The position numbers were made by a program, and so were the translations under genes. The notes under the pieces were generated by a model. The model did no database searches, was not told the origin of the DNA, and saw nothing but the letters and a program-made list of their open reading frames with translations. From assembly GCA_009784145.1 (NCBI GenBank), contig WRCI01000041.1, forward strand, positions 1-11,258: a DNA stretch of 11,258 bases. The letters are read 5' to 3'. Shown here in pieces: positions 830-10,218 of this stretch (the first letter of the stretch is position 1; each line of letters begins with the position of its first letter). Source of the DNA: Methanobrevibacter sp. (GTDB lineage: Archaea; Methanobacteriota; Methanobacteria; Methanobacteriales; Methanobacteriaceae).

Positions 830-1204
830 TCACTGATTGAAATGAAAGATGCTAATAAATCATGATTATTGAAATTATATCATAAATAACATTATAAATA
901 GCTAATAAAGAAAATTGTAATTTGAAAGTATTATTAGCTAATAAAGTCAAATTTCTTTTTTAAATGATTTACATATAAATTCAATATAAATCTAGAAAAC
1001 AATAAATAATATCATAGTCACTTAGTTATAAGATTTAATTTTATGATAAATAATAGCTATCATATATTAAAAAAATTCTATTTTTGAAACACTATACGAA
1101 AAAATATGTAAATTAAAATTTATAGATTAATATAATAGCTATTATTAAAATAAGCATATTATATAGAAAAAATATTTTTTGAAAAATCCTAAAAAAGTAT
1201 TACT

Positions 1205-1222
1205 AAAGAAAGCTTTTTATAC
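1205..1222 (+). promoter_or_regulatory. BRE/TATA-like promoter ahead of the RNA candidate
   Basis: A purine-rich stretch (AAAGAAAGC, 1205-1213, BRE-like) is followed by TTTTTATAC (1214-1222, TATA-like). An archaeal start about 26 nt past the box centre would fall near 1244, at the foot of the first hairpin of the RNA candidate. TATA-like words are common in this AT-rich DNA, so it is the placement that gives it value. Confidence 0.35.
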
Positions 1223-1241: not shown

Positions 1242-1348
1242 ATTGCTAATGCAATATAAAGAAAAGTTCTATATTATATCCCTTGAGTGATTTCACTCTC
1301 ATACACACTCCACATTGGTAAAAGCTCGGGGGATTGAACTTATTCTTT
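1242..1348 (+). ncRNA. Candidate structured non-coding RNA, family unknown
   Basis: A small hairpin ATTGC-TAAT-GCAAT (1242-1255) is followed by a long interrupted helix. AAAGAAAAGTTC (1258-1269) pairs with GAACTT-A-TTCTTT (1336-1348): 12 pairs with one bulged A at 1342. After an asymmetric internal loop (1270-1277 against 1335), ATCCCTTGAG (1278-1287) pairs with CTCGGGGGAT (1325-1334): 10 pairs, two of them U-G. The 37-nt apical part (1288-1324) can form GAGTGA-TT-TCACTC (1285-1298), which competes with the last three pairs of the second helix. The two wobbles would be A-C mismatches on the other strand, so the plus strand is the likely RNA. This island is far richer in G and C than its surroundings. 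It lacks box C/D and ANA signals placed as in guide RNAs and does not fold as a tRNA. Whether it is transcribed is inference. Confidence 0.55.
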
Positions 1349-1356
1349 GAAAATAC

Positions 1357-1367
1357 TTATTTTTATT
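1357..1367 (+). terminator. T-rich end signal after the RNA candidate
   Basis: TTATTTTTATT lies 9 nt past the closing base of the long helix. It has the form of an archaeal oligo-T terminator and would give a transcript of roughly 120 nt from the proposed start. Confidence 0.35.
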
Positions 1368-1618
1368 CCAATATTATATAGAAATTTTATATACTCGTTT
1401 TAATTATCTATAAATTTAATTTAAACATTATTTTTATTAATATCCTCAAATTTCATTAAAAAGGTATTACTTTTTTGACTATTAAGATAATGATAATAGC
1501 CTATTCAATATTCTAAAATAAATAGCTATATAATAATAAAATTTTGAATTAATAAAAACCCAAAATGTAAAAATATAATATAATTTGAAATTAATAAAGA
1601 TTTAAAAAAATATAAAAA

Positions 1619-3726: not shown

Positions 3727-4539
3727 TTATCTGTTACTAGAACTAGAACCACTACCAGAGCTAGTACTCTTAGTAGAACTACTACTAGATCCAGAACCAC
3801 TACCTGAACCAGAACCACTACCTGAACCAGAACCACTAGTACTGCTAGAACCACTACCAGATCCACTGCCAGAACTAGAACTACTACCCGATCCACTGCC
3901 ACTGCCAGAACTAGAACTAGAACCACTAGTACTGCTAGAACCAGAGCCTGAACCACTACCAGAACCAGACCCACCATTGGAACTAGAGCTATCATCGGAA
4001 TTATCGTTAGTTGTTACATCATTAGAACTAATTCTATTACTAGATTCGTCCTTCACTTCAGAATTAGAATTAGATATTGAGATAACGTCACCAAAACCTG
4101 AATCTGTAGAATTAGCTACTATCTCTGGAAAAGTACTATCAGCAACAAATATTGGTCCAGAATTTTGAATATTTGTTTGTGGACCTGCAAAAAGTCCAAA
4201 GCTTATTCCAACAAGAAATGCAGATATTAAAAATACAACTGCTATTATAGCAAATATTCCTTTGTGTGAAGCAGCTTTAGCAGCTTTCATTTCTTCTTTT
4301 CTTTCTTTTTCAGTTTTAACAATATATTTATTGACAAGAGCCCTATCTTCTCGCCTACTGGCTTCTGCCATACTTCTTTGGATAGCTGGTGAAGGAGGTC
4401 TTTTTCCTTTACCTTGCATATTTCTTATACGAGTGCTTGCATTAAGATTAGCTAAACGAGATTTATATTCGTTAGATAAATATTTATATTTATCTTCAGA
4501 AATTTTCCCCATTTTATAATCTTTTTCAAGCTCTTGCAT
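3727..4539 (-). CDS. One-TM protein with a SHOCT-like N-terminus and a long Gly/Ser tail
   Basis: I do not recognise a named family. The 270-aa product has a charged, probably cytoplasmic N-terminus (1-93). Its first part, [20 protein letters not shown], resembles the short helical SHOCT/oligomerisation motif, and a Lys/Glu-rich stretch follows (75-90). One membrane helix (about 95-118) comes next, then a Ser/Asn-rich spacer (120-185) and an almost pure Gly/Ser tail (186-270). By the positive-inside rule the tail is outside, where it could span the cell wall or be glycosylated. The tail DNA is repetitive. No canonical start has a good ribosome binding site. This ATG has only AAGGA with a 2-nt gap, whereas AGGAG at 4582-4586 lies 9 nt before an in-frame ATT (4570-4572), which would add 11 residues (NQDKQKLLRI and the start). 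A stop at 4585-4587 rules out anything longer. It is the first gene of a probable pair with the downstream lipoprotein. Confidence 0.75.
3732..3975 (-). repeat. Gly/Ser-coding repeat tract
   Basis: About 240 nt of degenerate 6-nt Gly-Ser codon pairs with interspersed Ser-rich blocks. It contains a larger internal duplication: a 25-nt segment at 3829-3853 recurs exactly at 3919-3943, 90 nt (30 codons) away, encoding GSSSTSGS twice. Tract length is likely to vary between strains. Confidence 0.8.
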
Positions 4540-8914: not shown

Positions 8915-9640
8915 TCATTTAATATTTAACAATTTATGAGTTTGTGGAATAAGCAAAACTTCCATACATTCCCCAATAATTTCAGAAAAAACAAATAATT
9001 TTTTATTTTGATTTGTCCACTGGCTTAATGGACTTGAAGGTTGAATTACACACATAATATCTAATTTAGATTCAACGTTTTCCATGATTTTATTTATCAT
9101 GTTTTTAATAGTACTTGTTTTTGAAGAAGGCAGGACAACCATTTTACAATATAGTTCTTTATTATGATTTATTAAAAATTTTAGTGATTTGATTTCATTT
9201 TCAAAAATATCTTCATGTGTTTTCTCATCATCAAAATGTTCTGGGAGTTTAATATCTAAAGACACACAATCAATTCCAACAAGTTTAGCTAATGATTCAG
9301 GCAAAGTACCATTTGTTTCTAACATAAACTTAATATTAATTTTTCCAAATTCAGAGAATTTTATTTTTTCAATTAATTTGTTAATGAACTCTACATATAA
9401 AAGAGGTTCTCCACCTGTAAAAGAAATAGAATGTAAATCAGGACTTATTAAATTTTTTATATCCTCCAAAATTTCATCTACAGTCATTAAAGTTCCAAAG
9501 TCCTTAGATTGGCTTTCTTGAGTATCACAGTAATTACAAGACAAATTACATCCAGAAAAACGAATGAATATTTGTCTTCTACCAATCCATGCTCCTTCAC
9601 CTTGAAAACTTGAAAAAATCTCTACAATTGGTGCTTTCAT
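8915..9640 (-). CDS. queE: 7-carboxy-7-deazaguanine synthase (radical SAM)
   Basis: Radical-SAM ring contraction of 6-carboxy-5,6,7,8-tetrahydropterin to 7-carboxy-7-deazaguanine, on the preQ0 route to archaeosine in tRNA. The 241-aa product shows IFSSFQGEGAWIGRRQIFIR (8-27, the QueE substrate-binding opening), the 4Fe-4S cluster motif as C31-x3-C35-x2-C38 in GCNLSCNYCD, FTGGEPLL (74-81), LETNGT, the KMVVLPSS strand, IQPSSP and the C-terminal IPQTHKLL. All are QueE hallmarks and the length is usual. It starts 23 nt after the queD stop on the same strand, so the two consecutive pathway enzymes are almost certainly co-transcribed. The ribosome binding site is weak (AAAGGT about 9 nt before the ATG), but there is no better start because the ATG is only five codons before the conserved IFSSFQGEG. 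QueC, the next enzyme, is not in the window. Confidence 0.95.
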   Translation of the reverse strand: MKAPIVEIFSSFQGEGAWIGRRQIFIRFSGCNLSCNYCDTQESQSKDFGTLMTVDEILEDIKNLISPDLHSISFTGGEPLLYVEFINKLIEKIKFSEFGKINIKFMLETNGTLPESLAKLVGIDCVSLDIKLPEHFDDEKTHEDIFENEIKSLKFLINHNKELYCKMVVLPSSKTSTIKNMINKIMENVESKLDIMCVIQPSSPLSQWTNQNKKLFVFSEIIGECMEVLLIPQTHKLLNIK

Positions 9641-9663
9641 TTAGTCAAAACCTTTAAAAATAA

Positions 9664-10218
9664 TTAGCTAATTTTTTTAAAACAAGCTCCTTGACCTATT
9701 CCTTCATTTACACATACAGAAACAGAATCAATTTCATGTTCTTTTTTCATTAATTCTTCAAAAAGAATATTTGCAAAATATTGAGACATTTCTTCAGCAG
9801 AAGAATGTTTTAATGGAAGAAGAACACAATCTTCCATAGGAATTTTATATTCTTTATTTTTAATAGAAAATTCAACATAGTCTTTATTACAAAAGTCAAG
9901 AACAGATAACTCATTAGAATCTATATTTTCATTATTATCAAGAGATTTTCCAGAACTATCTACTCCTTTAAATTTCATATTTTGATTATTAATTGGGATT
10001 AATAATCTATGATCTAACTTTTTACAAATAGATCTAACAATCGTTTTTACATCTTTAAAATCAGTTACAAATTCATAATTGCCAGTTCTTTCTCCTATAA
10101 TTTCTACATCAACAAAGTAAGAATGTCCATGAATAAAACCACATGAAGAGTGTGCAGGTATAATATGAGCAGATGAAAATCTTAATCCTGCATTTATTCC
10201 ATTAATCATTATTTTCAT
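9664..10218 (-). CDS. queD: 6-carboxy-tetrahydropterin synthase (QueD/PTPS family)
   Basis: Converts dihydroneopterin triphosphate to 6-carboxy-5,6,7,8-tetrahydropterin, the substrate of QueE. Zinc ligands are visible as H18 (FSSAH), H30 and H32. The catalytic cysteine is C26, spaced as CxxxHGH, the arrangement typical of QueD rather than of eukaryotic PTPS. The D69-H70 pair (LDHRLLIP) and a C-terminal Glu (E172 in [12 protein letters not shown]) complete the site. At 184 aa it is much longer than the 120-140 aa of bacterial QueD. The excess is a Asn/Ser/Asp-rich stretch (about 77-105) and the segment after it, before the conserved [12 protein letters not shown] helix (about 138-149). AAGGAG (10226-10231) 7 nt before the ATG supports the start over the Met at residue 4. 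It lies between the DUF366-like gene (62-nt gap) and queE (23-nt gap). Because of the CxxxHGH motif and the QueE neighbour, QueD is preferred over a folate-type PTPS-III. Confidence 0.93.

Follow-up and report, generated by a model that had tools for sequence, protein, structure and literature searches.

Does the single G+C-rich island in the gap between two converging archaeal genes encode an RNA and, if so, what might control that RNA and what might it do? The stretch of DNA analysed here (the window, 11,258 nt) is contig G000:C41 of a Methanobrevibacter-type archaeon, from an assembly that is 65% complete. In it, a fibrillarin gene (71-775, + strand) and a CoaBC/Dfp gene (1776-2999, - strand) converge on about 1 kb of A/T-rich DNA. 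An earlier reading of the sequence alone had placed one island in this gap, with both neighbours pointing toward it, and had proposed that the island is an unassigned structured RNA gene. The gene orientations are as described, and across the gap (776-1775), where G+C ranges from 10 to 35% in 100-base steps, the segment 1242-1348 is indeed the G+C peak. Elsewhere in the window, a frame at 3727-4539 carries a long Ser/Gly repeat tail, the frames opposite to or overlapping it being probably spurious; adjacent frames at 8915-10218 look by eye like QueE-type radical SAM and 6-pyruvoyl-tetrahydropterin-synthase-like proteins and perhaps belong to the archaeosine pathway.

Folding of 1242-1348 gave a minimum free energy of -25.6 kcal/mol, where shuffled sequences averaged -15.7 (z -3.48), and 0 of 200 dinucleotide shuffles were as stable. 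The fold contained both long helices that the sequence-only reading had drawn, in the same positions: a 12-pair helix with one bulge (P1) and a 10-pair helix (P2), the latter extended by one loop-side pair, 1288-1324. In the centroid structure this closing pair was the only one within the P2 loop, 1288-1324, which was otherwise open. The flanking signals were also located, namely a TATA-like element 20 nt upstream and a T-rich run from 1357, whose five consecutive Ts at 1360-1364 put the claimed distance of 9 nt after the island about right. The coordinates of these and other features are collected in Table 1.

Table 1. Features of the RNA gene and its flanks in the window
Feature	Position	Strand	Basis or conservation
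Box 1, AAAAAAGTATTACT, with palindromic core AGTATTACT	1191..1204	+	Directly upstream of BRE/TATA region; core exact in 22 of the first 23 homologues, one mismatch in L003
BRE-like AGAAAGC	1207..1213	+	Largely kept in homologue alignment; we take its function from archaeal promoters in general
TATA box, TTTTTATA	1214..1221	+	Largely kept in 23-sequence alignment; last four bases near-invariant
Near-invariant TTGCTAATGCAAT (5' hairpin of the earlier reading)	1243..1255	+	At predicted transcription start, presumed to lie inside this segment by the TATA spacing rule
P1, 5' strand	1258..1269	+	Fold; double-sided changes at 4 of 11 modelled pairs; pairing in 82% of cells
P2, 5' strand	1278..1287	+	Double-sided changes at 7 of 9 modelled pairs; pairing in 92% of cells
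Loop seed 1, TTCACTC	1292..1298	+	TCAC in 45 of 45 distinct loops
Loop seed 2, CACTCC	1306..1311	+	ACTC present twice in 38 of 45 distinct loops
P2, 3' strand	1325..1334	+	As P2, 5' strand
P1, 3' strand	1336..1348	+	As P1, 5' strand
T-rich run, TTATTTTT	1357..1364	+	T-rich there in most alignment rows; putative, likely terminator
Box 2, AAAAAGGTATTACT	1458..1471	+	Core with one mismatch; box 1 lies 267 nt before it

The island belongs to no RNA class that we could recognise, as the sequence-only reading had also stated. Rfam 15 at gathering thresholds gave no match in the window (tRNA, SRP RNA, RNase P RNA, C/D, H/ACA and riboswitch families included), and ARAGORN gave no tRNA or tmRNA gene. 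At E<=5, the region 780-1780 gave three chance-level Rfam matches, the best of 17.2 bits against a threshold of 60.

Homologues in relatives, and compensatory changes within them, had been proposed as the evidence to look for, and we observed both. By DNA similarity, homologues were found in 23 of 60 genomes searched, the window's own genome included (L001-L023); in the other 37 the best match had E 0.003 or worse and, among the matches listed, these were short pieces. A covariance model of the RNA alone matched 99 of the 138 genomes of the family, in 10 of its 17 genera, and none of 12 genomes from other families of the order (99 of 150 in total). Among the 99, 97 matched at E<=1.5e-5 and 96 had a single match; those of G096 and G130 were split into pieces, at least one of each at a contig end. 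An apparent second copy in G009 (E 0.015) was rejected, as it lies inside a gene that reads by eye as histidyl-tRNA synthetase. A pattern built on the promoter and 5' end matched 44 named stretches, from Methanobrevibacter, Candidatus Methanovirga, Candidatus Methanorudis and one unnamed member of the Methanobacteriaceae, and of the 34 that were given to the covariance model 33 matched. Altogether 69 loci were given to the model and 68 matched, the exception being L084, an incomplete locus.

The gene's surroundings are largely conserved: 21 of the 23 loci have fibrillarin upstream, and 13 have CoaBC within the flank examined; in G003 another gene lies downstream of the RNA. The two loci that lack fibrillarin, L014 and L017, are both of genus g4. 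In L014 (G007), the RNA and both of its boxes lie between other converging genes, at 111-989 and 1865-2707, which encode a LysR-type HTH protein and a CBS-domain protein, so that here either the cassette or its neighbours moved. By eye, P1 of L014 and L017 is apparently replaced by an extension of P2.

The best single test of the family is the homologue from genus g2 (G005, L310), which was missed by DNA similarity and reached only E 0.015 with the model. The same spot was matched by the independent promoter pattern and lies, by eye, between fibrillarin and CoaBC, with both boxes 265 nt apart. Its P2 is rewritten as TCCTCATAG/CTATGAGGA, forming 9 pairs, and little is kept of its loop besides two CACTCC motifs, so both ACTC-type seeds persist in this divergent sequence. 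The strict promoter form, box-GANA-TATA, had 13 matches in 36 genomes, all of them at the RNA gene, and TTGCTAATGCAA was not evident by eye at other promoters of the fetched loci.

Covariation supports a shared structure. In 53 distinct sequences aligned by the model, and thus fitted to it, we counted 76 double-sided cells, compared with 24.6 in shuffles (0 of 500 reached the observed value) and at most 27 in slid controls; pairs with such changes occur in both P1 and P2 (Table 1). RNAalifold, applied to an unfitted MAFFT alignment, returned 12 pairs, 9 in P2 and 3 in the 5' hairpin, with double-sided changes in 7 of the former and none of the latter. It did not recover P1 from this alignment, in which MAFFT misaligns P1 in several rows. 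On the unfitted alignment (A3) the named structure also exceeded its shuffle and slide controls in most measures, the exception being further pair types, for which 50 of 500 shuffles reached the observed value. The structure of the RNA is under selection.

The small hairpin at 1242-1255 that had been drawn ahead of the two helices fared less well: it does fold in the window sequence, but as a conserved helix it is not supported, with double-sided changes in none of its 4 modelled pairs and the outer pair disrupted in 29 of the 53 distinct sequences. We treat this segment as promoter or 5'-end sequence, which it may be rather than a helix, because the TATA box would place the start site there. 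Pairing of the 5' end with the loop as a pseudoknot (CUAAUG with CAUUGG, by eye) was considered and set aside, as the loop side is lost in genera g5, g6 and g11.

Might the island instead encode a short peptide, or does A/T-rich DNA fold this way by chance? From a conserved ATG, 6 of 56 homologues do have a frame of 33-46 codons, but 27 of the 56 stop after 4 codons and no frame is conserved; the compensatory changes and the shuffles, none of which folded as well, also oppose this idea, to which we give almost no credence. The plus-strand reading of the earlier proposal was borne out as well, since the two main helices of the 53 distinct homologues require 51 wobble pairs when read on the plus strand and 14 on the minus strand. 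With family, fold and covariation in agreement, we regard it as close to certain that the island is a real structured RNA gene that had not been catalogued. The best explanation of these observations is a non-coding RNA of about 105-120 nt, present as one copy per genome in Methanobrevibacter and its sister genera and expressed from a TATA promoter of its own.

We turn to the boxes that lie up- and downstream of the RNA; these, and the nickel link drawn through them, go beyond the earlier reading. In the next two counts and in the later count of 32-bp partners of the RNA's boxes, as in the wobble and frame counts above, each distinct promoter-to-RNA stretch was taken once and the promoter pattern was required. 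An exact AGTAWTACT was present 212-267 nt downstream of box 1 in 45 of the 50 distinct loci with 300 nt of downstream DNA; the window, with its one mismatch, is among the other 5. A third copy lies 187-200 nt upstream in 12 loci; those of known genus all belong to g11.

The same box occurs throughout the genomes of relatives. In 8 relatives that are at least 99% complete, the 13-mer AAAAAGTAWTACT has 170 sites and its reversed control 21, a count that includes the RNA's own boxes and takes symmetric sites twice. The window's own genome, surveyed for a 12-mer with one mismatch, had no enrichment (35+35 sites versus 39+42). In three genomes we examined 39 box loci together with the RNA locus L190, covering every listed box of G003 and, save for one in each, those of G028 (2.87 Mb) and G023 (1.69 Mb); the RNA's own box places in the latter two were set aside. 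Neighbours confirmed by profiles were HmdC, Hmd, CbiM, FrhA, nicotianamine synthase, a heavy-metal P-type ATPase and CobN-type proteins and, in two genomes, McrB. A family-5 binding protein stands at boxes in all three genomes; that of G028 is NikA-like (166 bits, below the NikA model cut-off of 393), and the other two match the general family-5 domain only. Many boxes have neighbours of no evident nickel role, such as TatD, PAP2, EamA, HcyBio, HxlR, an integrase and unnamed proteins. The spacing between box and TATA at other genes was too noisy in A/T-rich DNA to be of use.

One of the three other exact 12-mer boxes in the window's own genome (L034) lies 228 nt upstream of an mcrB start, a gene call made from a 28-residue match at a contig end. 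In two relatives, G028 (L173) and G003 (L191), a box precedes mcrB by 221 or 240 nt, and by eye the mcrB leaders of these two have stretches in common.

At some of these sites the box is one half of a larger operator. Among 54 sites (L163 being left out as a duplicate of L162), the offset of +32 bp between centres had 8 inverted partners, compared with 0.44 per offset. L162 and L163, about 10 kb apart in G028, share the box, an HxlR regulator, a small membrane protein and a CbiA/ParA-type ATPase, and are likely a recent duplication. The paired operator was present in 108 of the 138 family genomes and its control in 1. We took one operator locus from each of 30 of the 108 genomes, not chosen by gene, and searched them with a strict set of 12 metal-related query proteins, counting a gene only if it started at most 800 nt downstream of the operator. 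A gene of this set (nikA-like, CbiM, P-type ATPase, nicotianamine synthase or Hmd/HmdC) was found at 22 of the 30 loci, one of which, L289, is itself the source of a query; without the two genomes from which queries were drawn, 21 of 28 loci qualify. Any gene of the set was found in 2 of 48 unrelated control loci, from which loci with the RNA promoter were excluded and some of which overlap each other. A looser set of 20 proteins had given 25 of 30, a count superseded by the strict one. The three matches dropped were an EamA alone, an ATPase fragment of 41% identity some 950 nt distant and a CobN-type protein with no start nearby. It should be noted that the query labelled CobN_G028 is a DUF3344 protein and falls outside the strict set.

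In L292, L297 and L304, nicotianamine-synthase-like genes adjoin a heavy-metal P-type ATPase at paired boxes, and another such gene is at paired boxes in L188; the synthase and ATPase could possibly form a metal-chelator system in gut methanogens.

How do the RNA's boxes relate to this operator? At a distance of 32 bp on either side, no partner half-site reached 3 cases among 50 box-1 and 43 box-2 contexts. The best explanation is that boxes 1 and 2 are half-sites of the metal-gene operator which, at the RNA gene, stand singly and widely spaced. With its two boxes far apart and neither of them paired at 32 bp, the RNA may be controlled in another way than the uptake genes are; looping between the two boxes is one idea of how it might work. 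Nor are RNA and paired operator strictly linked, because each can occur without the other: genus g10 has the RNA, yet all 3 of its genomes lack an exact paired operator, and in genus g3 operators stand without the RNA in 8 of 20 genomes. The exact paired operator was also not found in the window's own, 65% complete genome.

The lack of a paired operator at the RNA, and the position of box 2 beyond the RNA's end in the gap between converging genes, would suit a constitutive structured RNA whose boxes serve something else, e.g. as a regulator decoy or as a chromatin boundary between convergent genes. We consider this improbable: box 1 adjoins the BRE/TATA element in all of the first 23 homologues, with an exact core in 22, and genus g4 keeps box 1 even with the other neighbours of L014. 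Within that genus, L014 has an exact box 2, whereas L017, L058 and L079 do not.

The RNA is probably nickel-regulated. We think it quite likely that it is under the control of a nickel box, with the proviso that cobalt also fits, as CbiM and CobN neighbours could mean that metal. As to the reader of the box, we infer that NikR binds it and that nickel rather than cobalt is the signal, and lean slightly toward NikR. A NikR domain was found in 125 of the 138 family genomes (not in the window's own, at 65% completeness), and the NikR protein of G023 has a ribbon-helix-helix together with the NikR C-terminal domain. The box core contains GTATTAC, one base from the published NikR half-site of delta-proteobacteria, GTGTTAC, and an iron-only hydrogenase is within the NikR regulon there (PMC545781). 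Transcript work on nickel limitation in Methanothermobacter marburgensis dates from before (PMC3087415), and under such limitation Hmd, a CobN1 and a NikR homologue of this species are up and Frh and Mvh are down (PMC12350162).

Nonetheless, the published NikR operator has a spacing of N13/14 (PMC545781) and the paired spacing here is 32 bp, a difference that favours a regulator other than NikR. Near nikR in both G003 and G023 we noted a similar protein of about 155 aa (L312 4848 +, L314 3479 -), whose G023 copy has no Pfam match and has a box upstream. It is a possible co-regulator and might itself read metal-responsive boxes, as might a nickel, cobalt or zinc sensor, given that the CbiM and CobN neighbours fit cobalt too; one Methanothermobacter NikR homologue may sense zinc, according to a review passage (PMC3087415). 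The breadth of NikR in the family and the likeness of the core to a NikR half-site weigh against these regulators, and on balance we judge them unlikely but not remote. Our confidence in the nickel box, in NikR and in the reading as a whole was lowered because of the strict recount, the NikA-like score below its cut-off and the remark on zinc in PMC3087415.

If NikR does bind box 1, the RNA would answer to nickel supply and would probably be up when nickel is short, as uptake genes would be. Its long P1/P2 stem presents an open loop of 35-37 nt with two CACUC(C) seeds. The 16S anti-Shine-Dalgarno end is UCACCUCC, and the resemblance of the seeds to it suggests translational repression at ribosome-binding sites. 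The seeds could pair with GAGUG or GGAGUG around such sites and block translation, making the RNA a trans-acting repressor. We infer the direction of regulation and the pairing mechanism, and any target; that the loop pairs with mRNAs at all is a tentative proposal, to which we would give a little less than an even chance.

Searches for targets came out negative. Of 128 start regions, that of a glnK-like mRNA (named by eye) in G028 formed the strongest duplex (-21.9 kcal/mol); of 25 loci given, 20 had a readable start, and 3 of these beat -16 kcal/mol (-22.2, -19.1 and -16.8), so this pairing is chance or lineage-specific and was rejected. Among the ten best duplexes of 60 in G028, a metal ATPase ranked 4th and FrhA 5th; no such gene ranked in the top ten for G003 or G023. 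The dual-site pattern GGAGTG-N0..14-GAGTG had 33 matches in 19 genomes, 12 of them the antisense strand of the RNA gene itself. The other 21 compare with 37 for the control, and the 18 examined as loci had no recurrent gene start region. Single-seed TGGAGTG before ATG did exceed its control, an excess that is uninformative because any GGAG Shine-Dalgarno would give it.

That these searches yielded no conserved mRNA partner is what would be expected if the RNA were nickel-regulated but bound a protein, as a sponge or scaffold, with the CACUC repeats as protein-recognition motifs. An open loop that holds a pair of short, similarly spaced repeats and otherwise drifts also suits such a role. There is no candidate protein, though, and the seed motif fits pairing near ribosome-binding sites too; a protein-binding RNA is to our minds unlikely. 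For the reading as a whole, i.e., an RNA gene under nickel control with mRNA pairing as its favoured end, our belief only just outweighs our doubt.

A more speculative model, and one we think rather unlikely in its full form, is that this is a nickel-sparing RNA, the first of archaea. At low nickel, NikR would leave box 1, the RNA would build up, its two anti-Shine-Dalgarno-like seeds would shut off translation of nickel-hungry enzymes, and electron flow in gut methanogens would be helped to pass from [NiFe]-hydrogenases to the nickel-free Hmd; the second box would let NikR loop the gene, giving a sharper switch.

Methanobrevibacter is a main methane producer of animal guts. The conserved RNA gene with its nickel box provides a concrete candidate for a regulator in this genus, and the operator pattern provides a list of candidate metal-regulated genes. 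Methanogens have a high nickel demand (PMC10617489), and two species that have been studied reroute electron flow under nickel scarcity (PMC12350162). That study reports protein changes and a NikR homologue made at low nickel, and the portion of it that we cite names no control circuit (PMC12350162). Our literature search, in which few subscription journals were covered, returned no description of this RNA family, of a nickel-linked archaeal sRNA or of the Methanobrevibacter operator.

How, finally, does this RNA compare with known systems? Among regulatory sRNAs of methanogens there is sRNA154 of Methanosarcina mazei, which is nitrogen-related and comes from another order. As a regulatory sRNA of a methanogen (PMC11549558) it is of the same general kind as the RNA described here, whose sequence no Rfam family matches. 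The delta-proteobacterial NikR regulons (nikMNQO; GTGTTAC-N13/14-GTAACAC) have a half-site one base apart from ours and the same class of uptake genes (PMC545781). In contrast, the half-sites here lie 32 bp apart where they mark uptake genes and 212-267 nt apart where they flank the RNA gene, and the account of those regulons, in the part cited, names no RNA (PMC545781). Metal-regulated sRNAs as a kind are already known in bacteria (PMC9294342). RyhB-type iron sRNAs and the Nur-linked s-SodF follow the same logic that we propose, in which a cognate sRNA goes with a metal sensor (PMC9294342), although they concern other metals or regulators and other phyla. A further close parallel is NikS (HPnc4160/IsoB) of Helicobacter pylori, which is likewise a small RNA under a nickel regulator and is listed as the cognate sRNA of NikR (PMC9294342). 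NikS is bacterial, whereas the RNA described here is from a methanogen and has a covarying stem, two boxes that are single half-sites and a putative link to NikR.
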